Below, piece by piece: positions 3,985-54,565 of a stretch of DNA of 64,000 nucleotides. The DNA lies in contig ONKA01000015.1 of the NCBI GenBank assembly GCA_900318265.1, positions 1-64,000 of the forward strand, written 5' to 3'. This stretch comes from an uncultured Bacteroidales bacterium. GTDB lineage: Bacteria > Bacteroidota > Bacteroidia > Bacteroidales > F082. Below the pieces are notes generated by a model. That model worked only from the letters and a program-made list of their open reading frames with translations. It was not told the origin of the DNA and searched no databases. Positions within the stretch are counted from its first letter, which is position 1. Each line of letters begins with the position of its first letter. The translations under genes and the position numbers were made by a program.

Positions 3985-6900
3985 GATTGTGCGTTGTTTT
4001 CATCGTTTTTGTTCTTTTCTTCGTTGCGTTTGTCGCGTTCGTCGAGGCGGTCGAGGAAGCGTTGGTTGGCTTTCTTCAGACGATTTTGGTCGCGTTCGCC
4101 TGCATCGAAGGCCAGGCAGTAGGCTACGGGCAGCACGGTGACGACCAAGGGGAAGGTGAAAATGGTTCCGAAGCAGATCACCACGCCCATAGGCTCCCAG
4201 AGCAAGGTCTTGGCTATGATCATCGGGATGACGCCCAAGGCAGTGGTGGCTGAGGTGAGGAAGATGGGCCTCATGCGGCGCAGACCGGCTTCGTAGGCGG
4301 CATCGTGCACGGCGATGTGCTCTTTAGCCTGTATCTCGCTGGCGTAGTCATACATGATGATGGCATTGCGCACGATGATGCCAATGAGTGAGATGACACC
4401 CAACAAGGCAGTAACCGACAGGTCGAGGCCAAACAACCACAGACCGAACATGGCGCCGAAGATACACAACAGCGAGACGGATATCGAGAGGAAGGAGATG
4501 CCAATGCGTTTGTAGTGTATGATCAAGACGATGAACATCACCACGATGGCGGCTATGATGGACATGAGCAATGAAGGCATGGTCTCCTTGGTAATAGCCA
4601 TGGAACCGCCTTCTTCGATGACGACATCTTCGGGGATGTCGAGCGTGTCGAGGTGTTCTTGGGTTTTCTTGAATTGCTCCAATTGTCCGCATCCGGGCAT
4701 GACATCAGCCATCACGGTGATGCAACGACGGCCGTTGCGGTGGGTCATGTTGTCGTGTTGGAAACGGGGATGGATTTCGGCCACTTGGCGCAAAGGCACC
4801 CATGTGCCAGGAAGTGCGGTGGGCACTAGCATGTCGCCGATTCCCTCATAGTCGATGTCGTGCAAGCCTTCAGTATAGATGGTCGTGGGTAGGTTGTAAC
4901 CACTTTCCCACATCGAGACCATTTTGTTGCCCGAAAGGGCACTCGAGAGGTAGACCGAAAGCACGGCTTGAGTCACGCCAAGGCGGTTGGCTTCGTCTAT
5001 GTTCAAGTCCACTTCCACGATCTCTTCAGTGTCGTCATAGTCGGAATGGACGAAAAACAGCTCGGGATTTTGCTTCAAGCAGGCAACGAGTGAGTCCTTG
5101 ATGGGCTCAAGCTTGTCGTAGCTGTCGCCCATGATGTAGTATTCCACGGGTGCATTCACCACCTGATAGTCCATCTGCTTGAAACGGATTTGCGCCAACG
5201 GGAAGTGGTTTTCGTATTTCTGCGAGTACTCTTTCATCATCTCCTTGGTGGCTTTCTCCGATTCGGTGATGACGATGAATTGTGAATAAGCCGAGGTGGG
5301 CATGGGTTGGGGTGAGTAGGTGATGTGGAACCGTGGCGAGGCCATGCCGAGGAATGTGGTGACGGATTTCACGCGCTTGTCGGCCAATAGGATTTTCGTC
5401 AGAGAGTCGGACACGGCAGCAGTTTCTTCGAGCGAACTGCCGGCGGCGAGATGGACCTCCACGGCAAAGCTGTCGCGCTCGGCTTTGGGCAACATCTGAA
5501 TATTGATGCGAGTGAGGAAAAACACGCCGATGGCCACGGATATGACAGATACGATGATGGTACCCCATTTGTAGCGGAAGCAGAGGTCGAGGAGTTTCTT
5601 GTAGGATTTTTGAAGCGCGTTGAAGAACTTGGCTTGGATTTTCTCAAACTTTGAACGTTTGTTGGGATTCGACGGACTGATGATTCTAGCCGAAAGGTAG
5701 GGAATCACCCAAATGGCATATAGGAAACTGCACGACAAGGTGATGAAGATGGCCCAAGGGAACATGCCTATGAAATCGCCCATGTTGGTGCCTTTCATCA
5801 ACGACAGCATGGGGAAGAACATGAAGGAGATGGAGCAGGTGGCGATGAGCATGGAAGTCATCAGGCTCTTGGTGGAGACGGCGGCGGAATACCAACGGGA
5901 ATGGCCCGAATTGAGCATGTCGGTGTAGCCGTCGATAACCACGACTGAGTCGTCAACGATCATGCCGAGCACGACGATGAGCGCAGCCAAGGTGACGGTG
6001 TTCAACTCGATACCTAAGAGGTACATGATGGCCCATGCCGCCGCGATGCAGACAGGCACCGAGGTCGAAGAGACCAAGGCGGTTCGCAAGGGGAAGAGGA
6101 ACAGCATCACCAGAATGACGATGATGATGGCCTCGATGAGGTCATTCAGGAAGGAATGCACCGACTTGTTGACCACCACGGGTTGGTCGGTGATGCGGTG
6201 CACTTTGATGTCGGGTGGCGCCGTGGCAAGGAAGGTCTCAATCTCTTTGTTGACTTCATCGCCGAAGGCTACCACGTTGTGCCCCGGTCGCATCTCCATG
6301 GAGAAGATGAGGCATTGGTTGCCGTCAACAATGCTGTCGGAGTATTGGATGTATTGCGACGACTCTTGATAACGGCGTTCCAGCCGGGCTACGTCGCGCA
6401 GGCGGATGACCTGTCCCGTGACGGGGTCGGAGAAGACAATCAGTTCCGATAGTTCAAAGATGTCGGAGTAAGGGACATTCACATGGATGACCGCCGAACC
6501 GTCATGGTTGTCGGCCTTGCCGGTGATGGTTCGTAGGCTGTGGGCGGCCAATTCTGCCGTAATCATTGAAGGCGACACTGCGTATTGGGTCATACGGGTG
6601 GGGTCCATATAGATGGCGATTTCTTCCTTTTGCTCGCCCACGATTTTGATGTTGCCCATCGTTTCGATGTTACGAAGGCGTTCCGAGAGACGGTCGGCAA
6701 AGTCGCGTAGCTCGCGAGGCGAGCGTTGGTCGCTCTCAATGGCAAGGAGCAGGGAAGAAGCGTTGCCGAAGTCGTCGATGACCGCTGTGGTCAATACGCC
6801 TTGAGGCAAGTCGGTCTTTTGGAACAGTTCCAGTCCTTGGCGCATGCGAGACCAAGTCATCTTGGCGTCTTTGGTGTCGTTGACCAACGAGACGAAGACC

Positions 6901-44016: not shown

Positions 44017-45537
44017 ATGGCAAATAAGAAAGAAACCGTCGAAGAGCCTTTGGAAAAACAGCTTTGGAAGGCTGCCGACAAATTACGTAAGAATATTGAT
44101 GCGGCTGAATATAAGCACGTTGTGTTGGGCCTCATCTTTTTGAGATATATTTCGGTCTCGTTTGAACAGTTGTATGACGAATTGGTAAAGCAACAGGCAG
44201 ATGGCGCCGACCCCGAGGACCGAGAGGAATATGCCGCTGAGAATGTGTTTTATGTTCCGGCTAATGCCCGATGGAGTTACCTGGTTTCAAAGGCAAAGAA
44301 TCCACAGATAGGCAAGTATATCGACGATGCTATGGATGTCATCGAGCGCGAGAACAAGTCGTTGAAAGGCGTGCTGCCCAAGGTGTTTGCCCGTCCTTAT
44401 CTCGACCCAACTTCGTTGGGCGAATTGATTGACTTGATTGGTAACTCCACTTTGCAGAACACCAGCACCAAGAGTGCCGACTTGCTCGGTCACGTCTTCG
44501 AGTATTTCCTTGGTGAGTTTGCCTTGGCCGAAGGCAAGAAGGGCGGACAATTCTACACGCCGCGCAGTGTCGTGGAACTGTTGGTCAATATGCTGGAGCC
44601 GTACAAAGGCCGTGTGCTTGACCCTTGCTGTGGTTCTGGTGGCATGTTCGTGCAGAGCGAGAAGTTCGTGAAGGAGCATCAAGGCAGGATTGAGAACATC
44701 TCAGTTTACGGGCAGGAGAGCAATCAGACCACTTGGCGTTTGTGTAAGATGAACCTTGCTATCCGTGGCATTGACGCTTCGCAGGTAAAGTGGAACACCG
44801 AAGGCTCATTCCTCAACGATGCCCACCGCGACGTGAAAGCCGACTTCGTGATGGCCAACCCTCCGTTCAACGACAGCGACTGGAGCGGAGACCAGCTGCG
44901 CAACGATGCACGCTGGCAGTACGGAGTGCCGCCTGCAGGAAACGCCAACTTCGCGTGGATTCAGCACTTTATCTATCACCTTGCCCCAAGCGGACAAGCA
45001 GGCTTTGTGCTGGCCAAAGGCTCGTTGACTTCCAAGACGGGCGGCGAGGGCGAAATCCGCAAGGCTTTAGTCGACAAAGGCTTGATTGCCTGCATTGTGA
45101 ACCTCCCTGCCAAGTTGTTCCTAAATACGCAGATTCCCGCTTGCTTGTGGTTCGTGACCCGTAACAGAACTAAGCGCCCCGGTGAAATCCTATTTATCGA
45201 TGCTCGCACCAAAGGCCATCTCATCAACCGTCGCACACGCGAACTCTCGGAAGACGATATTCAAGAGATTGCCAAAACTTATCATCTGTGGCGTGATGAA
45301 TCGGCGGAATATCAGGATATTCCCGGTTTCTGCGCCTCGGTGCCCGTGAGTCGTGTGGCCGAACTGGACTATGTGCTCACGCCTGGTCGCTATGTCGGTT
45401 TGCCTGAAGAGGAGGACGACTTCAACTTCGCCGAGCGTTTTACCGCCTTGAAAGCTGAGTTTAAGGAGCAACTGAAGGAAGAGGAACGGCTGAACAAGGT
45501 GATTTTGGAGAATTTGGGGAAGATAAAAATTGAATAA
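44017..45537 (+). CDS. hsdM: Type I restriction-modification DNA methyltransferase HsdM
   Basis: 506 residues. N-terminal HsdM helical domain (EKQLWKAADKLRKNIDAAEYKHVVLGLIFLRYIS), then an N6-adenine methyltransferase domain with DPCCGSGG (202-209, SAM-binding motif I) and NPPF (281-284, motif IV). Forms an M2S methylase, or R2M2S2 with HsdR. First gene of the locus, with its own consensus promoter. The next gene begins 3 bp after the stop. Confidence 0.95.
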   Translation: MANKKETVEEPLEKQLWKAADKLRKNIDAAEYKHVVLGLIFLRYISVSFEQLYDELVKQQADGADPEDREEYAAENVFYVPANARWSYLVSKAKNPQIGKYIDDAMDVIERENKSLKGVLPKVFARPYLDPTSLGELIDLIGNSTLQNTSTKSADLLGHVFEYFLGEFALAEGKKGGQFYTPRSVVELLVNMLEPYKGRVLDPCCGSGGMFVQSEKFVKEHQGRIENISVYGQESNQTTWRLCKMNLAIRGIDASQVKWNTEGSFLNDAHRDVKADFVMANPPFNDSDWSGDQLRNDARWQYGVPPAGNANFAWIQHFIYHLAPSGQAGFVLAKGSLTSKTGGEGEIRKALVDKGLIACIVNLPAKLFLNTQIPACLWFVTRNRTKRPGEILFIDARTKGHLINRRTRELSEDDIQEIAKTYHLWRDESAEYQDIPGFCASVPVSRVAELDYVLTPGRYVGLPEEEDDFNFAERFTALKAEFKEQLKEEERLNKVILENLGKIKIE

Positions 45538-45540
45538 GGT

Positions 45541-45831
45541 ATGAGCGAGTGGAAAGAATACACAACATTGATTATTGCGGCTGTGACACTTGTCGTGGCA
45601 ATAGCTGCTTTCATAGTGGCAAGGCGAACGCTCCATGTCACCAAGCGAGCGCATGAGTACGCAAAAGAAAGAGACAAAAAGAGTCTTCAGGACCTGATTG
45701 ATAATAAAGAGGCGCAACTGAAATCCATGCAGGGAATCATGAGGTATATGGCGAATGATGTTACGATGACACAAGAAGCCATGCTGAAAGCCGAAATAGA
45801 ACAATTGAAACAACAATTGAAGAGATTATGA
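45541..45831 (+). CDS. Small membrane-anchored coiled-coil protein between hsdM and hsdS
   Basis: 96 residues. Starts MSEWKEY, nearly identical to the HsdS start MTEWKEY (the DNA GAGTGGAAAGAATA is shared). One transmembrane helix follows (about 9-27, LIIAAVTLVVAIAAFIVA), then a charged amphipathic stretch to the end that predicts as coiled coil (LKAEIEQLKQQLKRL). The stop overlaps the hsdS ATG (ATGA), so it is coupled to hsdS. I know of no HsdM/HsdS partner of this form; possibly it captured the 5' end of an hsdS gene. Function unknown. Confidence 0.7.
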   Translation: MSEWKEYTTLIIAAVTLVVAIAAFIVARRTLHVTKRAHEYAKERDKKSLQDLIDNKEAQLKSMQGIMRYMANDVTMTQEAMLKAEIEQLKQQLKRL

Positions 45832-46991
45832 CCGAGTGGAAAGAATATAAGTTTTCTGATTTTGTTGAAATAAATCCTTCTGTGAAGATTCCAAAAGGGA
45901 TTCCTGTCTCTTTTGTGGAAATGAAAGATTTAGACAGTTCGGTCAGATATTGTGAGAGTTCGCAAAAGAAAGAGTTGGCAGGTGGAAGTCGATTCATAGA
46001 TGGTGATACTTTGTTTGCTAGAATTACGCCTTGTATGGAAAATGGGAAAATATGCCAAGTACGGAATTTGGAAAACGGTATTGGATTTGGCTCGACAGAA
46101 TTCCATGTTTTAAGAGGAAAAGAAGGTGTTTCTGACAGCGATTTTGTGTACTATTTGTCAAGATGGGATGAGGTTAGGGATCACGCAGAGCATAATATGG
46201 AAGGCAGTTCAGGAAGGCAGAGAGTGCCCAAACAAGCATTTGATAATTTGTATCTTTGTCTTCCCCCATTAAACACCCAGCGCCGCATCGCCGCCATCCT
46301 CTCTTCCCTCGACGACAAGATAGACCTTCAGCACCGCGAGAACGCCACCTTAGAGCAGATGGCCGAAACGCTCTTTAGGCAATGGTTTGTTGAGGATGCG
46401 AAGGAGGAGTGGAAGGAAGGAAAGTTGGGGGATTTAATTGATGTAAAATCAGGCTTTGCATTTAAAAGTTCCTCATTTGTAGACTTTGGTTTGTATAGAC
46501 TTATTACAATTAAAGCTGTCCAAGATGGTTTTTTGACCCTTGAAAATGCTGACTATATATCAGAAATTCCTGATAATATTAAGGATTATTGTCTCTTAAA
46601 AGAGGGAGATATACTTTTATCACTAACAGGAAATGTTGGAAGGTGTTGCCTTGTTGATAGAGAAAGATTACTGCTAAATCAGCGTGTAGCTTTGTTATGT
46701 GCTAAGGATAACAAAAATTGGGCTTTTGTGTACACGCTATTTAGAATGCAAAGTATGAAAAGTAAACTTGAGGAAATGGCAAAAGGAACGGCTCAACCAA
46801 ATTTGAGTCCGATTGAATTATCAAATATGCAGTTTGAAATTCCTCCTACAAAGCTATTAGAAGGCTTTTCAGAGGCAGCAACTCCTTTATTGAGAAAAAT
46901 ACTTTCAAATAACAAGCAAATCCAAACACTCATCCAGACAAGGGACGGGTTGCTGCCGAGACTGATGGATGGGGAGGTGAAAATACTGTAA
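45828..46991 (+). CDS. hsdS: Type I restriction-modification specificity subunit HsdS
   Basis: 387 residues with two target-recognition domains: TRD1 about 1-140, TRD2 about 190-330. Each is followed by a conserved spacer helix: LPPLNTQRRIAAILSSLDDKIDLQHREN (about 145-172) and IPPTKLLEGFSEAATPLLRKI near 340-365, ending DGLLPRLMDGEVKIL. HsdS fixes the DNA sequence recognised. The second half (from about 46,430) is notably AT-rich, as expected for exchangeable TRDs. Stop 9 bp before the next gene. Confidence 0.94.
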   Translation: MTEWKEYKFSDFVEINPSVKIPKGIPVSFVEMKDLDSSVRYCESSQKKELAGGSRFIDGDTLFARITPCMENGKICQVRNLENGIGFGSTEFHVLRGKEGVSDSDFVYYLSRWDEVRDHAEHNMEGSSGRQRVPKQAFDNLYLCLPPLNTQRRIAAILSSLDDKIDLQHRENATLEQMAETLFRQWFVEDAKEEWKEGKLGDLIDVKSGFAFKSSSFVDFGLYRLITIKAVQDGFLTLENADYISEIPDNIKDYCLLKEGDILLSLTGNVGRCCLVDRERLLLNQRVALLCAKDNKNWAFVYTLFRMQSMKSKLEEMAKGTAQPNLSPIELSNMQFEIPPTKLLEGFSEAATPLLRKILSNNKQIQTLIQTRDGLLPRLMDGEVKIL

Positions 46992-47000
46992 ATAAGAAAA

Positions 47001-47693
47001 ATGGAAGACGCGTACACATTAGAAGACTATAGACAATTGGCTGACAATATTCACTTCTTTCGTATAAAGATTAATCAAGAGAATGTTTCAATAACGTTGA
47101 GAGAGGTTTTGAACTGCTTGAGCGAATTGAGCTGGATCAGTAAATTTGATAAGCCTTATATGCAGAATTCATTCAATAAACGAGCAACAGATACTATTGA
47201 TTATATTACAACGAACATTATTAATGGAACTGAAAGTGAAGTTACGACTGATTCCGGAGAATATGTTGTTTCTGTTTTGTCAAAGAAAACAATTGTTGAC
47301 AAATTGGACTACCTAGATGTACCATTAGCAGAATTGATTAAAGAAAAGGTGGTTGGTAATCCTGGTTTTGATTTTTATAGTGAAAACAAAAATAACATTT
47401 TGCTATTTGGAGAAGCCAAGTATGTAGCAAAAGCAAATGCGTTCAATAAAGCATTAGAACAGATAGAAAAATTTTCTATTTCAGGCAAGGATCTTAATGA
47501 TATTGCTTCTATAGTCCATTTCTTTTCAGAAGAAGCCCTTGAAAACGCTAACAATGGGGACAAAGGATATATTGCGGCGTTTTCTTCAACTGAAATTGAA
47601 ACTGAAAAATTAGTGAAGCATATTCAGGATAATGAGCATTATAAGAATTTATCATCTCATAAAGAGTTGATTTGCGTAGCAGTAACGATATGA
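47001..47693 (+). CDS. Candidate HamA-like PD-(D/E)XK nuclease (Hachiman-type pair)
   Basis: 230 residues, AT-rich. A PD-(D/E)XK-type motif is visible: Asp124 in NPGFDFYS, then Glu138-x-Lys140 in ILLFGEAKYVAKANAF, with a helix (NKALEQIEKFS) after it. That is the pattern of the DUF1837/HamA nuclease, whose partner HamB is an SF2 helicase; here the next gene is an SF2 helicase joined by an ATGA overlap. N-terminal residues 1-110 are helical without a known motif. Slightly short for HamA. Alternative: another REase-helicase defence pair. Assigned from motif plus context only. Confidence 0.55.
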   Translation: MEDAYTLEDYRQLADNIHFFRIKINQENVSITLREVLNCLSELSWISKFDKPYMQNSFNKRATDTIDYITTNIINGTESEVTTDSGEYVVSVLSKKTIVDKLDYLDVPLAELIKEKVVGNPGFDFYSENKNNILLFGEAKYVAKANAFNKALEQIEKFSISGKDLNDIASIVHFFSEEALENANNGDKGYIAAFSSTEIETEKLVKHIQDNEHYKNLSSHKELICVAVTI

Positions 47694-49984
47694 AAGAGGT
47701 AATAAAGAATATTATCAATGGGAATCAAATATCTGAAATATTTGACCATGTCATAAACAACCTTTATATGAGGGGACCTGTTGACGGGACAGATATGGAG
47801 ATTCTCTCATATTTGGCATTGTATCGTCCTGATGAATTTGAGACATACAAAGACAGAGTATTAAATTATATGGGTGTGTTTTATAAAAAAGGTGTAAAAC
47901 GTAACTCATTGAAAGAAGTGATATTTGGACAATATAGAAAGTACATCTGGGACACTTATGATAAGTATTACACTCCTGTACAAGCTGATATTGTTAAAAA
48001 CATATCAAATGCCAATTGTTTCAGTTTTTCTGCTCCAACAAGTACTGGGAAATCTTTTGTGTTTAGGAATCTGATTGAGAAAGGTGTCAATGATACGGTT
48101 GTTGTTGTGCCATCAAGAGCTTTAATCAATGAATACTATTTGAGGCTTTGTGAGTTAATGCCGGATAAAAGCATCAACATTCTGACTTTTATTGATAAGA
48201 TTAATACAGCAAGAGCCAGGAGAAACATATTTGTAGTTACTCCTGAACGCTGTAGGGATTTGTTCAAGCAGAAGGAGGACTTTAATGTTGATTTGTTTTT
48301 GTTTGATGAAGCACAATTGAGTGATGAAGAATCAACTAGAGGTCTGTTTTATGATAGTATTGTTAGAAGGTGTTACAAAGCATATCCAGAAGCGAAGTTT
48401 GTATTTGCCCATCCGTTTATTAATAATCCAGAAGCCCAGTTAGTAAAGAATCATTTAGTTGATAAAGTAGCAGCGGCAAGGTTATATGAGCACAAGAATG
48501 TTGGACAAATGTATTTGTGCGTGGATGATAACAATGTTTTTTACCATTTTGGAATAGATAAAACCATAATGGGAACACGGAAAATGCAGTGCTCATTTGA
48601 CCCAGTTGAGAGATGTATAAAAGATGGTGGTTCGGTGTTGTTTTACGTTTCGAAATCAAAGATTTACAACAAAGGTTTCTTGAACGAATATGGGCGATAC
48701 ATTGATTTGTGTGAAGAGATAGACGAAGATATAATCAATTATTACATTAATGAACTGAAATCATTTACGGGAGGAGATACTATCGCTAATAAAGATCATT
48801 ATTCACAAATGATTTCCTTGTTGAAAAGGGGAATAGTTACGCATCACGGTTCCTTGCCGCTTCAGTCAAGAAGTATCATGGAGCAATATACTCGAGATGG
48901 TTTTTGCAAACTATGTTTCGCTACTTCTACACTTGAACAAGGCATCAATATGCCATTTGATATTGTTGTATTAGATAGGTTTGAGGCGAGTAAACCCTTG
49001 GAAATGAAAAATCTAATTGGGCGAGCAGGACGTTCGTCTGAAGATGTTAAATTTGACTATGGTTATGTGATCGTATCTGAATCAAACATGAGTAAGTTTA
49101 GGGAAATCCTCAAAACTCCAAACGTTCTAGATGATGTTTCTGTATTGGATAAGCACGAAGAAGAGCGTTCTGATTATTCCGATTTTAAGGATGCAATTTT
49201 AAATGATGCTTTTTCAGACCAATATAATCTTACAAATAATGATTTAGAAAAATTCTCTGTAGAAGAATCTGATGATATTATTAAGCGAATTATGGATGCT
49301 TTCTATGAAAATGGAAGACTAATTACTTTTGAAGAAATTAATAATGATAGAAGCGAGATTTATTACACTTTCGATAGATTATACAGACTCTATTTAGGAA
49401 GGGATTTGTCTGATGGAGAAGGAAATGTGCTTCACACGGCTGTTAAGATTATGCTATGGCGGATATATGGCAATACTTTCAAAAAAATATGCTGGTATAG
49501 GTATTCTTATGTGAGCCGTTCATCGGATAGAAAAGAATTGGAAAGATTTGGGAGAAAGACAGATGAATTGGAAGCAAAGTTCATTACAGGATATGATGAT
49601 CTTCCAAATAAAGGATTAAGAGCGTATAGCATTTTCGAAAAAGGAACAAAGGCAAAAGATGTCGATTATGATAGAATTGTTTATGATACGTACGACTATA
49701 TTGACAAATTAATTGGTTTTAAACTAAGTGATATATTTTATGCTGCGTTTTACTTGTATTACAAAAAAACAAATGATGAAAGAGCACTGAGTTTGGCAAA
49801 ATACGTGAAATATGGAACCGATAATGAGCGATATATTTGGATGATAAGGTATGGAATGACTTTTGAAGATATTGAGGCGTTGGATGAGCATATAGAGAGT
49901 ATCAATGAAAGAGAAATTGTGTTTAAGCAAAGCATCAATGGAGTCCCTAATGATAAGAAGCAATCAATTATTAGATATTTGTGA
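47690..49984 (+). CDS. Candidate HamB-like SF2 helicase (Hachiman-type pair)
   Basis: 764 residues from the ATG overlapping the upstream stop (a TTG six codons earlier is unlikely). SF2 motifs: Q-like PVQADIV (about 96), Walker A APTSTGKS (115-122), motif II DEAQ (206-209; DEAH/DEAD variant), and THHGSLPLQSR plus TSTLEQGINMP (about 384-422). Motif VI IGRAGR follows at 443-448. The Ski2-like arrangement with a long C-terminal helical region (about 520-764) has no other recognised domain. Strongly AT-rich. In Hachiman, HamB senses or unwinds damaged DNA and licenses the HamA nuclease; I infer the same here. Confidence 0.65.
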   Translation: MKEVIKNIINGNQISEIFDHVINNLYMRGPVDGTDMEILSYLALYRPDEFETYKDRVLNYMGVFYKKGVKRNSLKEVIFGQYRKYIWDTYDKYYTPVQADIVKNISNANCFSFSAPTSTGKSFVFRNLIEKGVNDTVVVVPSRALINEYYLRLCELMPDKSINILTFIDKINTARARRNIFVVTPERCRDLFKQKEDFNVDLFLFDEAQLSDEESTRGLFYDSIVRRCYKAYPEAKFVFAHPFINNPEAQLVKNHLVDKVAAARLYEHKNVGQMYLCVDDNNVFYHFGIDKTIMGTRKMQCSFDPVERCIKDGGSVLFYVSKSKIYNKGFLNEYGRYIDLCEEIDEDIINYYINELKSFTGGDTIANKDHYSQMISLLKRGIVTHHGSLPLQSRSIMEQYTRDGFCKLCFATSTLEQGINMPFDIVVLDRFEASKPLEMKNLIGRAGRSSEDVKFDYGYVIVSESNMSKFREILKTPNVLDDVSVLDKHEEERSDYSDFKDAILNDAFSDQYNLTNNDLEKFSVEESDDIIKRIMDAFYENGRLITFEEINNDRSEIYYTFDRLYRLYLGRDLSDGEGNVLHTAVKIMLWRIYGNTFKKICWYRYSYVSRSSDRKELERFGRKTDELEAKFITGYDDLPNKGLRAYSIFEKGTKAKDVDYDRIVYDTYDYIDKLIGFKLSDIFYAAFYLYYKKTNDERALSLAKYVKYGTDNERYIWMIRYGMTFEDIEALDEHIESINEREIVFKQSINGVPNDKKQSIIRYL

Positions 49985-50145: not shown

Positions 50146-51348
50146 ATGAGACTTATTCAACGAGAATTGTACATGGCGAGGCTAAGGGCGCTGCGCGATA
50201 AGGCCATCATAAAGGTGATTACCGGGGTGCGGCGTTGTGGCAAAAGTACGCTGATGCAACTTTTCCAAGAGGAGCTGCTGCAATCAGGCGTAAGCGAAAA
50301 GCAAATCATCAGTATCAATTTCGAGGATTACGATTTCGTGGAACTTCGGAATGCAAAAGCCTTGTATCAGTATGTGGTCGCCCGTCTCGTTGAAGGCGCG
50401 CCCAATTACGTTTTCCTTGATGAGATCCAGCATGTGGACAACTATGCCGATGTGGTGGACGCGCTCTTTGTGAAAGAGAATGTCGATTTGTATATCACGG
50501 GATCAAATGCCTATCTGCTCTCAAGTGAGATCGCCACGCTGCTCTCTGGCAGGTATGTGGAACTACAGCTTCTGCCGCTTTCTTTCAAAGAATATGTCAA
50601 TGCAACGGGCAACACCAATGACCTGGAAAGAAAATACGCTGACTATATCACGTTCTCGTCTTTCCCTTACGCTATGGCGTTTGATAGAGAGGTGCAGATG
50701 ACCAACGATTACCTGAGAGGCATTTACAGCACCATCGTGCTTAAGGATGTGATGCACCGCCATAGCATCGGCGACGCGATGATGCTCGAAAATGTGATGG
50801 CGTTCATGGCCGACAATATTGGAAATACCTTGTCCGTCAAGAAAATTGCTGACACTTTGACTTCATCGGGGAGGAAGGTGGATGTGAAAACCATCGAGAA
50901 ATATCTGTCGGCACTCTGCCAGAGCTTCATCCTTTATCCTGCTAAAAGATACAACATTAAAGGCCGACAGTTGCTAAAGACAATGGAGAAGTACTATTTG
51001 GTGGATGTGGCGCTGCGTAACACGCTGTTGGGAAGCGCGAATGCAGATTTCGGACGCATATTGGAGAATGTGGTGTATCTGGAATTATTGCGACGTTACC
51101 CTAACGTGTATATCGGAAAGACGGATGCGTTTGAGATCGATTTCGTGGCCGTAAACATGCAGGAGGTGGCCTATTATCAGGTGGCGGCAACGGTTCGTGA
51201 CGAGGCGACGCTTGAGCGGGAATTACATCCACTCAAAATGGTGAAGGATAATTACCCGAAGACCGTTCTGAGTTTGGATGTGGCTCCAGTTGCCTATCAT
51301 AATGGCATCAAGATACAAAATGTGTTAGACTGGTTATTAGAACAATAA
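50146..51348 (+). CDS. AAA ATPase with DUF4143-type C-terminal domain
   Basis: 400 residues. Walker A GVRRCGKS (27-34), Walker B FLDEIQ (90-94), TGSNAYLLSSEIATLLSGRY (sensor region), then the C-terminal half (about 200-400) with a winged-helix-like segment and IGKTDAFEIDFVAVN, a PD-(D/E)XK-like or DUF4143 motif. These ATPases are abundant and variable in Bacteroidota and other gut bacteria; their function is unclear. Here it lies directly before hsdR (4 bp gap) and carries its own promoter with two palindromes, as if it had been inserted as a self-regulated cassette. GC content returns to normal here, unlike the preceding pair. Confidence 0.8.
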   Translation: MRLIQRELYMARLRALRDKAIIKVITGVRRCGKSTLMQLFQEELLQSGVSEKQIISINFEDYDFVELRNAKALYQYVVARLVEGAPNYVFLDEIQHVDNYADVVDALFVKENVDLYITGSNAYLLSSEIATLLSGRYVELQLLPLSFKEYVNATGNTNDLERKYADYITFSSFPYAMAFDREVQMTNDYLRGIYSTIVLKDVMHRHSIGDAMMLENVMAFMADNIGNTLSVKKIADTLTSSGRKVDVKTIEKYLSALCQSFILYPAKRYNIKGRQLLKTMEKYYLVDVALRNTLLGSANADFGRILENVVYLELLRRYPNVYIGKTDAFEIDFVAVNMQEVAYYQVAATVRDEATLERELHPLKMVKDNYPKTVLSLDVAPVAYHNGIKIQNVLDWLLEQ

Positions 51349-51352
51349 GGCT

Positions 51353-54300
51353 ATGGCAATCCTCCACGAATCCGACATAGAACAGATGCTCATAGACCAA
51401 CTGAAAGCCAAAGGCTATCAGTACCTCTATGGCCCAGACATCGCGCCAGATGGCGAAACTCCCATGCGTGCCAGCTTCGAGGAGGTGGTGCTGCGCGACA
51501 AGTTGGAAAAGGCGGTGAAACGGCTCAACCCATCATTGCCCTATTCGGTGCAGGACGAGGCGGTGAAAACCGTGCTGCGTATCAGCTCGCCCGATGTGCT
51601 GGCCAACAACGAGGAATTTCATCGCTTGCTGACTGAAGGCGTTCCTGTGTCGGTGTTCAAAGACGGCATGGAGCGTGGCGAAAGGGTGTGGCTCATTGAT
51701 TTCAACGACCCGTGGAACAACGAATATACTGTGGTCAACCAGTTCACCATCATCGAGAACGGCCACAATCGCCGCCCCGATGTGCTGCTCTTTGTGAACG
51801 GTCTGCCCTTGGTCATCTTTGAACTGAAAAATGCCGCCGACGAGAATGCCACCTTGCATAGTGCCTATCGGCAGATTGAAACCTACAAGCAACAGATTCC
51901 GTCGCTGTTCACCTACAATGCGTTGGTGGTTATTTCCGATGGCTTGGAGGCACGGGCAGGCTCGCTTTCGGCAGGCTTCAGCCGATTTACGGCATGGAAG
52001 AGCGAGGATGGCGAGAATATCGCATCGAATCTCGTAAGCGAGTTGGAAGTGTTGGTCAACGGTATGTTGCAGAAGGACACTCTGCTTGATTTGGTGCAGT
52101 CGTTCACGGTGTTTGAGAAACAGAAACAAGAAGACCTAAAGACGGGTCTCACCACCATCAAAACGGTGAAGAAGATTGCCGCCTATCACCAATACTATGC
52201 CGTCAACAAGGCGGTGGAATCGACTTTACGAGCCACGGGCATCAATGCTAATAGTATGTTCGCAGAATCGCCTGCCAATTATGGCTTCAAGACGGTGAAG
52301 GAGCAACAGCCTGGCGACCATCGTGCTGGTGTGGTGTGGCACACGCAGGGTAGTGGCAAGTCATTGACCATGGTGTTCTATACGGGCAAAATCGTGCAGC
52401 GGCTCAACAACCCGACCATCGTTGTCATCACCGACCGCAACGACTTGGACGACCAACTCTTTGACACCTTCACGGGCGCGAAACAACTACTTCGGCAGAC
52501 ACCCGTCCAGGCCGAAAGTCGCGAGCACTTGAAGAAACTGTTGTCGGTGCAGTCAGGCGGTGTTATCTTCACAACCATTCAGAAGTTCCAACCCGAGTCG
52601 GGCAATGTTTACGACACACTTACCGACCGCAGCAATGTCATCGTGATGGCTGACGAGGCACATCGCACGCAATACGGCTTCAAGGCCAAGACGGTGGACG
52701 TGCGCAACGAGGCAGATGAAGTGATTGGCTCGGAAATCAAATACGGTTTTGCCAAGTATTTACGTGATGCGCTGCCTAATGCCACCTATCTTGGTTTCAC
52801 AGGAACACCCATCGAGAAAGAGGACAAGAACACGCCAGCGGTGTTCGGCAATTACATTGACGTTTACGACATTGCACAGGCGGTGGAGGATGGTGCCACG
52901 GTGCGCATCTACTATGAAAGCCGTCTCGCCAAAGTGGAACTCAGCGATGAAGGCCGCCAGTTGGTGGAAGACCTCGACAAGGAGTTGGAAACTGAGGATA
53001 TGAACGATGTCCAAAAGGCCAAGGCGAAGTGGACACAGCTGGAAGCACTGATTGGCAGTCCCAACCGTTTGAAAAACATTGCCAAGGATATTGTCACGCA
53101 TTTCGAGGAGCGACAGAAAGTGTTTGAAGGCAAGGCGATGGTGGTGGCAATGAGCCGCAGAATTGCCGCGGAGTTGTACGATGAAATCATCAAATTGCGT
53201 CCCGAGTGGCATTCCGACGACCTAGCCAAAGGTGCCGTGAAGGTTGTAATGACTTCTTCGGCATCCGATGGCGCAAAGATAGCCAAACACCATACGACCA
53301 AGGAGCAGCGCCGTGCGTTGGCCGAGCGTATGAAGGATCCCGACGATGAGCTGAAGCTCGTCATCGTTCGCGATATGTGGCTTACAGGCTTCGATGTGCC
53401 TTGTCTGCACACGCTATACATCGACAAACCCATGCAAGGCCACAATTTGATGCAGGCCATCGCCCGCGTGAATCGTGTCTATAAAGACAAGCCAGGCGGT
53501 CTGGTGGTCGATTACTTGGGCATCGCGGCGGACTTGAAAAAGGCCTTGTCGTTCTATTCCGACTCGGGTGGCAAAGGCGACCCCACACAGCAGCAAGAAC
53601 AAGCAGTGGCCTTGATGCAGGAGAAACTGGAAGTGGTGGAGCAGATGTTCTATGGCTTCGATTATAAGCAATATTTCACTGCCGATACTGCTGGAAAACT
53701 TTCGTGGATTCTGAAAGCCGAAGATTTCATTCTGGGATTGGACGATGGCAAGAAGCGTTTCGTGAACGAGGTCACCGCTTTGGGCAAAGCCTTTGCCTTG
53801 GCCATCCCACAGGATGCCGCCATGGATGTGAAGGACGAAGTGGCGTTTTTCCAGGCTGTGAAAGCTCGTCTCTGCAAGTTCGACCAAACTGGTTTAGGCA
53901 AGACGGATGAGGAAATCGAAACCACCATTAGGCAAGTCATCGACCAGGCCTTGGTGTCCGAAAAAGTGATCGATCTTTTTGATGCGGCAGGTATCAAGAA
54001 GCCTGACATTTCCATTCTTTCGGAAGAGTTCCTGTTGGAATTGAAAGACATGGAGCACAAGAATATCGCTTTGGAAGTCCTGAGAAAGTTGTTGGAAGGT
54101 GAGATCAAGGTGCGTTCCAAGTTCAATGTGGTGGAAGGCCGCACTTTGATGGAGATGCTGGATGGTTCCATCACACGTTATCACAACAAAATCATCACCG
54201 CCGCCGAAGTCATTGATGAACTGATCAAACTCAGCAAAACCATTGTGGAGAAAGACAAAGAGGCTGAAGACATGGGCCTGACCACATACGAATATGCGTT

Positions 54301-54565
54301 CTATTCTGCTGTGGCAGACAATGAAAGTGCGAAAGAGCTGATGGGGAAGGACAAGCTTCGTGAGTTGGCGGTAGTATTGACCGAAACCATCCGCAAGAAT
54401 TCGTCCATTGACTGGACCATCAAGGAGAATGTTCGGGCAAAGATGAAAGTGGCAGTGAAACGGCTATTGCGCAAATATGGTTATCCACCCGATATGCAGC
54501 AATTGGCTACGGAGACAGTTTTGAAACAAGCTGAAATGATCGCGGAAGAAATTGCGAATCAATAA
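51353..54565 (+). CDS. hsdR: Type I restriction enzyme endonuclease subunit HsdR
   Basis: 1070 residues. N-terminal nuclease domain with RPDVLLFVNGLPLVIFELKN (Asp143, Glu157-x-Lys159). Helicase domain begins near 325 with VVWHTQGSGKSLTMVFYTG (Walker A 333-337), DEAH in VIVMADEAHRTQYG, and LVIVRDMWLTGFDVPCLHTLY and MQAIARVNRVYKDKPGG further on. Translocates DNA and cuts away from the site when the target is unmethylated. Separated from hsdM/hsdS by three genes, so its expression may depend on the AAA gene promoter. Confidence 0.95.
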   Translation: MAILHESDIEQMLIDQLKAKGYQYLYGPDIAPDGETPMRASFEEVVLRDKLEKAVKRLNPSLPYSVQDEAVKTVLRISSPDVLANNEEFHRLLTEGVPVSVFKDGMERGERVWLIDFNDPWNNEYTVVNQFTIIENGHNRRPDVLLFVNGLPLVIFELKNAADENATLHSAYRQIETYKQQIPSLFTYNALVVISDGLEARAGSLSAGFSRFTAWKSEDGENIASNLVSELEVLVNGMLQKDTLLDLVQSFTVFEKQKQEDLKTGLTTIKTVKKIAAYHQYYAVNKAVESTLRATGINANSMFAESPANYGFKTVKEQQPGDHRAGVVWHTQGSGKSLTMVFYTGKIVQRLNNPTIVVITDRNDLDDQLFDTFTGAKQLLRQTPVQAESREHLKKLLSVQSGGVIFTTIQKFQPESGNVYDTLTDRSNVIVMADEAHRTQYGFKAKTVDVRNEADEVIGSEIKYGFAKYLRDALPNATYLGFTGTPIEKEDKNTPAVFGNYIDVYDIAQAVEDGATVRIYYESRLAKVELSDEGRQLVEDLDKELETEDMNDVQKAKAKWTQLEALIGSPNRLKNIAKDIVTHFEERQKVFEGKAMVVAMSRRIAAELYDEIIKLRPEWHSDDLAKGAVKVVMTSSASDGAKIAKHHTTKEQRRALAERMKDPDDELKLVIVRDMWLTGFDVPCLHTLYIDKPMQGHNLMQAIARVNRVYKDKPGGLVVDYLGIAADLKKALSFYSDSGGKGDPTQQQEQAVALMQEKLEVVEQMFYGFDYKQYFTADTAGKLSWILKAEDFILGLDDGKKRFVNEVTALGKAFALAIPQDAAMDVKDEVAFFQAVKARLCKFDQTGLGKTDEEIETTIRQVIDQALVSEKVIDLFDAAGIKKPDISILSEEFLLELKDMEHKNIALEVLRKLLEGEIKVRSKFNVVEGRTLMEMLDGSITRYHNKIITAAEVIDELIKLSKTIVEKDKEAEDMGLTTYEYAFYSAVADNESAKELMGKDKLRELAVVLTETIRKNSSIDWTIKENVRAKMKVAVKRLLRKYGYPPDMQQLATETVLKQAEMIAEEIANQ

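Follow-up and report, generated by a model that had tools for sequence, protein, structure and literature searches.

What is a gene pair for a small putative nuclease and a helicase doing in the middle of a type I restriction-modification (R-M) operon? The question was raised by contig ONKA01000015.1 of an uncultured Bacteroidales bacterium (assembly GCA_900318265.1), of which positions 1 to 64,000 of the forward strand were analysed; this whole 64,000-nucleotide stretch is referred to as the window. The two genes are called hamA' and hamB' here. They most probably represent a divergent, compact branch of the Hachiman defence system (HamAB), carried as an exchangeable cassette of about 3 kb in the slot between hsdS and hsdR. 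This reading was built on the gene structure, the motifs, the predicted HamA fold of the nuclease, the nearness of the helicase to HamB, the site in the operon and a divergence of the cassette that lies below that of its flanks.

All features of the window described here lie on the plus strand. HamA' (230 aa, 47001..47693), a predicted PD-(D/E)XK effector nuclease, starts 9 nt after the stop codon of hsdS and shares an ATGA stop/start overlap (47690..47693) with HamB' (764 aa, 47690..49984), a Ski2-like superfamily 2 (SF2) helicase as judged from hidden Markov model (HMM) searches, hhalign, a tree and the nearest solved sequence. HamB' is counted from its ATG; the mechanical open reading frame (ORF) opens at a TTG 18 nt upstream and has 770 aa. 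In HamA', the predicted metal-binding catalytic residue Asp124 (GAT, 47370..47372) is followed by Glu138-Ala139-Lys140 (47412..47420), the ExK of a D-GExK motif, and Glu87 (47259..47261) belongs to a conserved GE whose counterpart in the alignment is the GE of canonical HamA. When the window protein was aligned with seven relatives, three of them on viral contigs (alignment A6, identity down to 30%), D124, G137, E138, A139 and K140 were invariant in all eight sequences. HamB' carries Walker A (APTSTGKS, residues 115-122, 48032..48055), a DEAQ box (residues 206-209, 48305..48316) and motif VI (GRAGR, residues 444-448, 49019..49033). The dN/dS ratio of HamAB was 0.07-0.16 across three genomes; because of this, and because the catalytic residues are invariant, the pair is more than a set of chance ORFs. 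Its G+C content was 33.6% as against 48.7% for the window, and 0.5% of stretches of the same length (taken in 100-nt steps) were equally low. An earlier note on this DNA had pointed out the nuclease and helicase motifs, the overlap, the AT-rich composition and the nesting in a type I restriction locus; each was found again, the helicase positions on the 764-aa numbering and the nesting through hsdM, hsdS and hsdR around the pair in Pfam and PADLOC.

The predicted structure of HamA' (AlphaFold2, predicted local distance difference test score, pLDDT, 84.6) pointed to the HamA fold. The best three matches in the PDB were Hachiman chains, with the next match lower by 3.5 Z, and two programs ranked HamA as the top fold. 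Model residues 1-230 superposed on residues 1-238 of the HamA chain, that is, the predicted HamA fold runs along the full length. HamA' was also found to match canonical HamA in a profile-profile comparison (hhalign, with controls), and a D-GEXK motif is described for canonical HamA (PMC12799240).

For the helicase, the best PADLOC HamB model scored 202.8 bits (2.6e-60) and the best Hel308-type NCBIfam model only 53.5 bits, and HamB' therefore leans clearly to HamB. With hhalign, HamB' aligned to canonical HamB over 626 columns with an E-value of 6.1e-53; the main profile comprised 10 canonical HamBs, can_L083 being omitted, and the Hel308 comparator was one sequence, so that column counts are not comparable between the two. 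In a tree of 27 sequences, the eight HamB' formed a single clade (100/100) on a long stem of 2.44 changes per column, and in the best tree a 100/99 branch separates these eight, most HamBs and AbpB from three long HamBs and Hel308. One row of this tree, L092, was labelled prot_ by guess from a neighbouring metallo-β-lactamase (MBL) gene and shows no protease or other family. The nearest solved chain by sequence was 9wh1_B (5.1e-26). The deposition names this chain DNA polymerase theta (helicase domain only) and its partner, 9wh1_A, anti-bacteriophage protein A/HamA C-terminal domain protein; 9wh1_B may be a misnamed HamB. The N-terminal region of HamB' (residues 1-90, 47690..47959), five helices in a low-confidence model, is a candidate for the HamA-binding NAH domain. 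Among the 50 PDB rows listed for this weak model, the three HamB entries alone aligned from residues 2-10 of HamB', and the other 47 started at residue 86 or later, the pattern expected from an NAH-like N-terminus. By overall structure the HamB rows (Z 17.3, 17.0 and 16.5) were tied with Brr2 and Pol theta (17.8 and 17.5), and by sequence alone the N-terminus scored 13.3 against NAH, which is not significant, as 60 shuffles reached 16.5.

A number of results weigh against a Hachiman assignment and have to be set beside it. The plain HMM search that the earlier note had suggested failed for the nuclease, none of six HamA' proteins being matched by the HamA models of Pfam (PF08878/DUF1837) or PADLOC. 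An eight-row HamA' profile retrieved no HamA from the PDB sequences, the canonical HamA HMM matched single HamA' proteins weakly (E 0.18 for the window, with L044 not among the matches listed), and the HamA' HMM ranked the GTPase ObgE (1.6e-5) above canonical HamA (0.0037). Against 11 canonical HamA rows, hhalign gave a probability of 20 and a score of 31.0, with the L028 row truncated (it was replaced in a later comparison), and against E. coli AbpA alone it gave no match. The Foldseek TM-scores between HamA' and HamA were modest (0.55 and 0.48). On the helicase side, an archaeal Hel308 control (L089; 936 bits on NCBIfam) reached 171 bits (6.2e-51) on the PADLOC HamB models; these models are therefore not specific, and a HamB match alone does not establish Hachiman. 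By approximately unbiased (AU) tests, neither a placement of HamB' beyond every HamB (p 0.052) nor one beyond the core set (p 0.28) was rejected, and the rooting is not settled. The best PHROGs profile for HamB' was phrog_6819, a Holliday junction branch migration helicase (2.8e-66), and its predicted structure was poor (AlphaFold2 pLDDT 58.8) and was used for the N-terminal question only.

Plain searches of Pfam, PADLOC, NCBIfam and the PDB with HamA' returned nothing usable; for single members, PDDEXK_14 gave a weak match (0.015), as did a type I methyltransferase model (0.013). In PHROGs only weak matches to families of unknown function were obtained (0.0052 and 0.014). We treat the failure of the Pfam and PADLOC HamA models as a matter of their reach and not as a trait of the system; as these models miss the HamA' branch, Hachiman is probably undercounted. 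The Hachiman-like reading proposed in the earlier note gained support, with HamB' nearest to HamB by HMM (the suggested PADLOC search did match the helicase, unspecific as its models are) and HamA' tied to solved HamA by predicted fold and to canonical HamA by profile-profile comparison. The new subtype it had envisaged fits a nuclease unseen by the Pfam and PADLOC models and a helicase in a fully supported clade of its own.

Strong HamA' matches were few: the genome of the window and one other in a draw of 393 genomes from the order, and the same genome and two others in a draw of 345 from the phylum, while canonical HamA exceeded the Pfam cut-off in 12 of 296 genomes. Of the two branches, HamA' is the rarer in these draws. 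The order hamA'-then-hamB' was kept in all seven full-length loci with a visible downstream gene. No match was obtained by tblastn of the window and L022 HamA' against plasmids and phages, and with PF08878 neither the genome of the window itself nor any of the 14 control genomes gave a match. Seven order-level candidates (L006-L012, E 0.001-0.01) were dropped, as they were absent from the list of the eight-sequence HMM at E<=0.1, and G716 (3.1e-5; L042/L045) was dropped as it was identified as ObgE. On viral contig L022 (5443-6669), the frame extends about 180 codons further 5' than the HamA'-like part, to 391 aa if counted from a TTG, so that an additional N-terminal domain may be present in this relative; its sequence was cut to 228 aa (5986-6669) for every alignment.

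The divergence of the cassette was compared among the window, L001 and L002/L003, the last being one metagenome-assembled genome (MAG) across a contig break, with hsdS-hamA' on L003 and hamA'-hamB'-hsdR on L002. Values of dN and dS were obtained by the Nei-Gojobori method with Jukes-Cantor correction in a custom script, and high values are rough. Among the three, dS was 0.27, 0.31 and 0.085 for HamB, and 0.80, 0.63 and 0.53 for HamA (on 160 codons wherever L002 was involved); it was 1.1-1.5 for hsdM, and 1.8, 2.3 and saturated for hsdR. In the comparisons of the window with L001 and L003, identity per 100 columns climbed from 33-51 to 72-80 over the final 80-90 nt of hsdS. Past the hamB' stop, identity dropped to 31-55%. 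Since the dS of HamAB lies below that of hsdM and hsdR, and since identity steps at both edges, the cassette of about 3 kb seems to have moved between the operons of different species more recently than the operons split. The conserved 3' tail of hsdS (46900..46991), which forms the left edge of the cassette by the identity step and has a similar counterpart in related operons, is a plausible recombination site.

The host locus is a type I R-M operon in which the pair is nested. Seven co-directional genes run from hsdM to hsdR (44017 -> 54565). The methyltransferase gene hsdM (506 aa, 44017..45537; Pfam N6_Mtase 9.8e-112, HsdM_N 6.7e-28; PADLOC MTase_I 2.4e-193) is followed by a 96-aa gene (45541..45831), the specificity gene hsdS (387 aa, 45828..46991; Pfam Methylase_S 2e-27; PADLOC Specificity_I 2.9e-81), hamA', hamB', a gene for an AAA_14/DUF4143 ATPase (400 aa, 50146..51348; Pfam AAA_14 2.6e-34, DUF4143 1e-21; PADLOC PDC-S01 7.1e-157) and the restriction gene hsdR (1070 aa, 51353..54565; Pfam HSDR_N 7.6e-54, T1RH-like_C 1.4e-130; PADLOC REase_I), which forms the right flank of the slot. 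By eye, the 96-aa product has one likely membrane span and a coiled coil. Relatives found by blastp lie immediately 5' of hsdS in five further operons (L068, L071, L072, L073 and L074; identity 43-67%), and its N-terminus, MSEWKEY, closely resembles the MTEWKEY with which the adjacent HsdS begins.

An hsdR match at 1e-50 was present in 35 of 60 genomes of the genus. The slot was examined in 11 operons, namely the window, L001, L002/L003 and eight with an hsdR 78-98% identical to that of the window over most of its length; G764 and G757, with partial hsdR matches (95-98%), stood outside this sample. The contig of L070 stops before hsdS, and hsdS is partial in L075 and in two pieces in L072. Eight kinds of cargo were found in these closely related operons: HamAB' in three (the window, L001 and L002/L003), Avs4 in L074 (PADLOC 2.1e-160) and L070, and, in one operon each, a CBASS SMODS cyclase with SLATT_4 (L069), SIR2-HerA (L072), an AbiJ-like Abi_C protein (L071), PDC-M34B (L073), AbiU/AIPR (L075) and an 803-aa protein of no clear family (L068:9165-11576). 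G777 has an intact copy of the Avs4-like STAND gene (1682 aa, L074:4461-9509); in G745 (L070:4383-8524) the gene lies in two frames, each about 99% identical to that copy. The 803-aa gene adjoins an hsdR 98% identical to that of the window, was matched in PADLOC by the Aga REase-TIR model alone, and weakly (3.4e-4); it is a candidate for an unknown defence gene. The AAA_14/DUF4143 gene, a further cargo of the slot, is 97% identical in G785 (L069), where it stands behind the CBASS genes and not HamAB; the right part of the slot therefore seems to recombine separately. In G451, another genome of the phylum, a canonical HamAB was found between hsdS and hsdR (L046, 1611-11040), which adds another Hachiman branch to the contents of this slot; identity to the window was 60% for HsdR, 68% for HsdM, 46% for HsdS and only 24% for HamB. 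A canonical HamAB pair also lies downstream of an HsdM-like gene in L088.

Such a position could mean that HamAB' serves the type I enzyme as an accessory guard, forming a second line tied to restriction and triggered by DNA ends made by HsdR or by phage inhibition of R-M, in the manner of PrrC/EcoPrrI. In the window and L001 the pair lies between hsdS and hsdR, and L002/L003 agree with this across two contigs; this would suit a guard, as would the canonical HamAB in the same slot of the related G451 operon, the DNA ends proposed as the trigger of HamB (PMC12278908) and the precedent of PrrC itself (PMC12707154). We nevertheless consider a guard unlikely, since by eye no hsd gene was seen in the stretches examined at other HamA' loci (viral contigs L021-L023; genomes L017, L043 and L044), and the unrelated systems that also occupy the slot suggest a common site and expression rather than biochemical coupling. 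In addition, HsdR activity was dispensable for TgvAB in a type I operon, although protection was greater with the complete cluster (PMC11411939).

It is less probable still that HamAB' is a DNA-processing helicase-nuclease of mobile elements, serving recombination or replication, which was brought into the island and has no part in immunity. The phrog_6819 match of HamB' and the three viral contigs among the seven other HamA' loci of A6 would agree with such an origin, but the nuclease partner tracks HamA in motif and predicted fold, canonical HamAB also occurs on phage records, and the slot is otherwise filled mostly by named defence systems. The phage records in question, L093 (Anaerosphaera phage) and L094 (human gut phage scaffold), carry HamA-HamB pairs that are unnamed as such (HamA HMM 9e-31 and 4e-36). 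That an ordinary Ski2-like helicase came to lie beside an unrelated PD-(D/E)XK nuclease by chance, a view already disfavoured, is very improbable indeed: the similarity between HamA' and HamA lies under family thresholds and one HamA' relative has the weak PDDEXK_14 match, yet the gene order was retained in all seven full-length loci with a visible downstream gene, and both programs put HamA first among the folds.

The anatomy of the pair is compatible with the mechanism described for E. coli Hachiman, in which HamA is kept in check by HamB as long as the DNA is intact and is activated by DNA ends and ATP hydrolysis, whereupon phage and host DNA are degraded (PMC12278908). By analogy, HamA' and HamB' would form a complex in which HamB' scans intact DNA and keeps HamA' inactive. 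HamB' would load where DNA ends are exposed, or at other damage of the sort that phage replication brings about, its ATP-driven movement would activate HamA', and the active nuclease would degrade phage and host DNA, thus aborting the infection, presumably independently of the R-M enzyme. A bolder idea, which we hold to be doubtful, is that the hsdS-hsdR slot is a dedicated, exchangeable defence socket. Cassettes, with a HamA family absent so far from the public models among them, would recombine into it via the conserved hsdS tail, would thereby be co-expressed with R-M and would form a conditional second line, HamAB' being set off by HsdR-made DNA ends or failed restriction; if true, restriction and abortive infection would be wired in series within one operon. 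The small size of the HamA' branch helps to define a minimal HamAB. The slot, for its part, is a natural experiment with close operons, eight interchangeable cargoes and cassette edges readable from sequence, which makes functional coupling, as opposed to a mere shared address, of R-M and abortive systems directly testable.

Among the papers listed by the literature searches (no bioRxiv set, most subscription journals missing), none on the HamA' branch or on a Hachiman system within an R-M operon came up, which is no proof of absence. The pair resembles Hachiman HamAB of E. coli ECOR31 (PDB 8vx9/8vxa/8vxy; PF08878 and HamB) in a nuclease gene followed by a helicase gene, in a D-GExK nuclease with a HamA fold (predicted for HamA'), in a Ski2-like HamB and probably in the N-terminal helices of HamB'. 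It differs in that HamA' has 230 aa and stands outside the Pfam and PADLOC HamA models, and in that HamB' has 764 aa as against 1174 aa for HamB and falls in a separate, long-stemmed clade. AbpAB of E. coli K-12 is likewise a nuclease-helicase pair, with a HamA-like C-terminal domain in AbpA and a Ski2-like AbpB. In AbpA (538 aa), however, a Cap4-like N-terminal nuclease is fused and the HamA site is inactive (PMC12278908), whereas HamA' is unfused with an intact motif, and AbpB groups with can_L077 in the tree and not with HamB'. Fusion variants of Hachiman have already been described, among them HamMAB, in which an MBL nuclease, encoded upstream, and a HamA fused to a trypsin-like protease accompany HamB (PMC12799240). 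It shares with the present pair a HamB sensor and a HamA-type partner, but HamA' is a single short domain with an intact catalytic motif (no protease match, a one-domain model), and the gene upstream is hsdS rather than an MBL nuclease.

That defence genes can be embedded between hsdS and hsdR is already known. DarTG2 occupies this identical slot in enteropathogenic E. coli (EPEC), a site regarded by the authors of that work as a potential hotspot of recombination (PMC12255303), TgvAB lies inside a type I cluster of Vibrio cholerae VPI-2 (PMC11411939), and PrrC belongs to the type I R-M operon of EcoPrrI (PMC12707154). The window shares with them the presence of non-R-M defence genes within a type I operon and differs in a cargo that is Hachiman-like and in the eight cargoes found among close operons.
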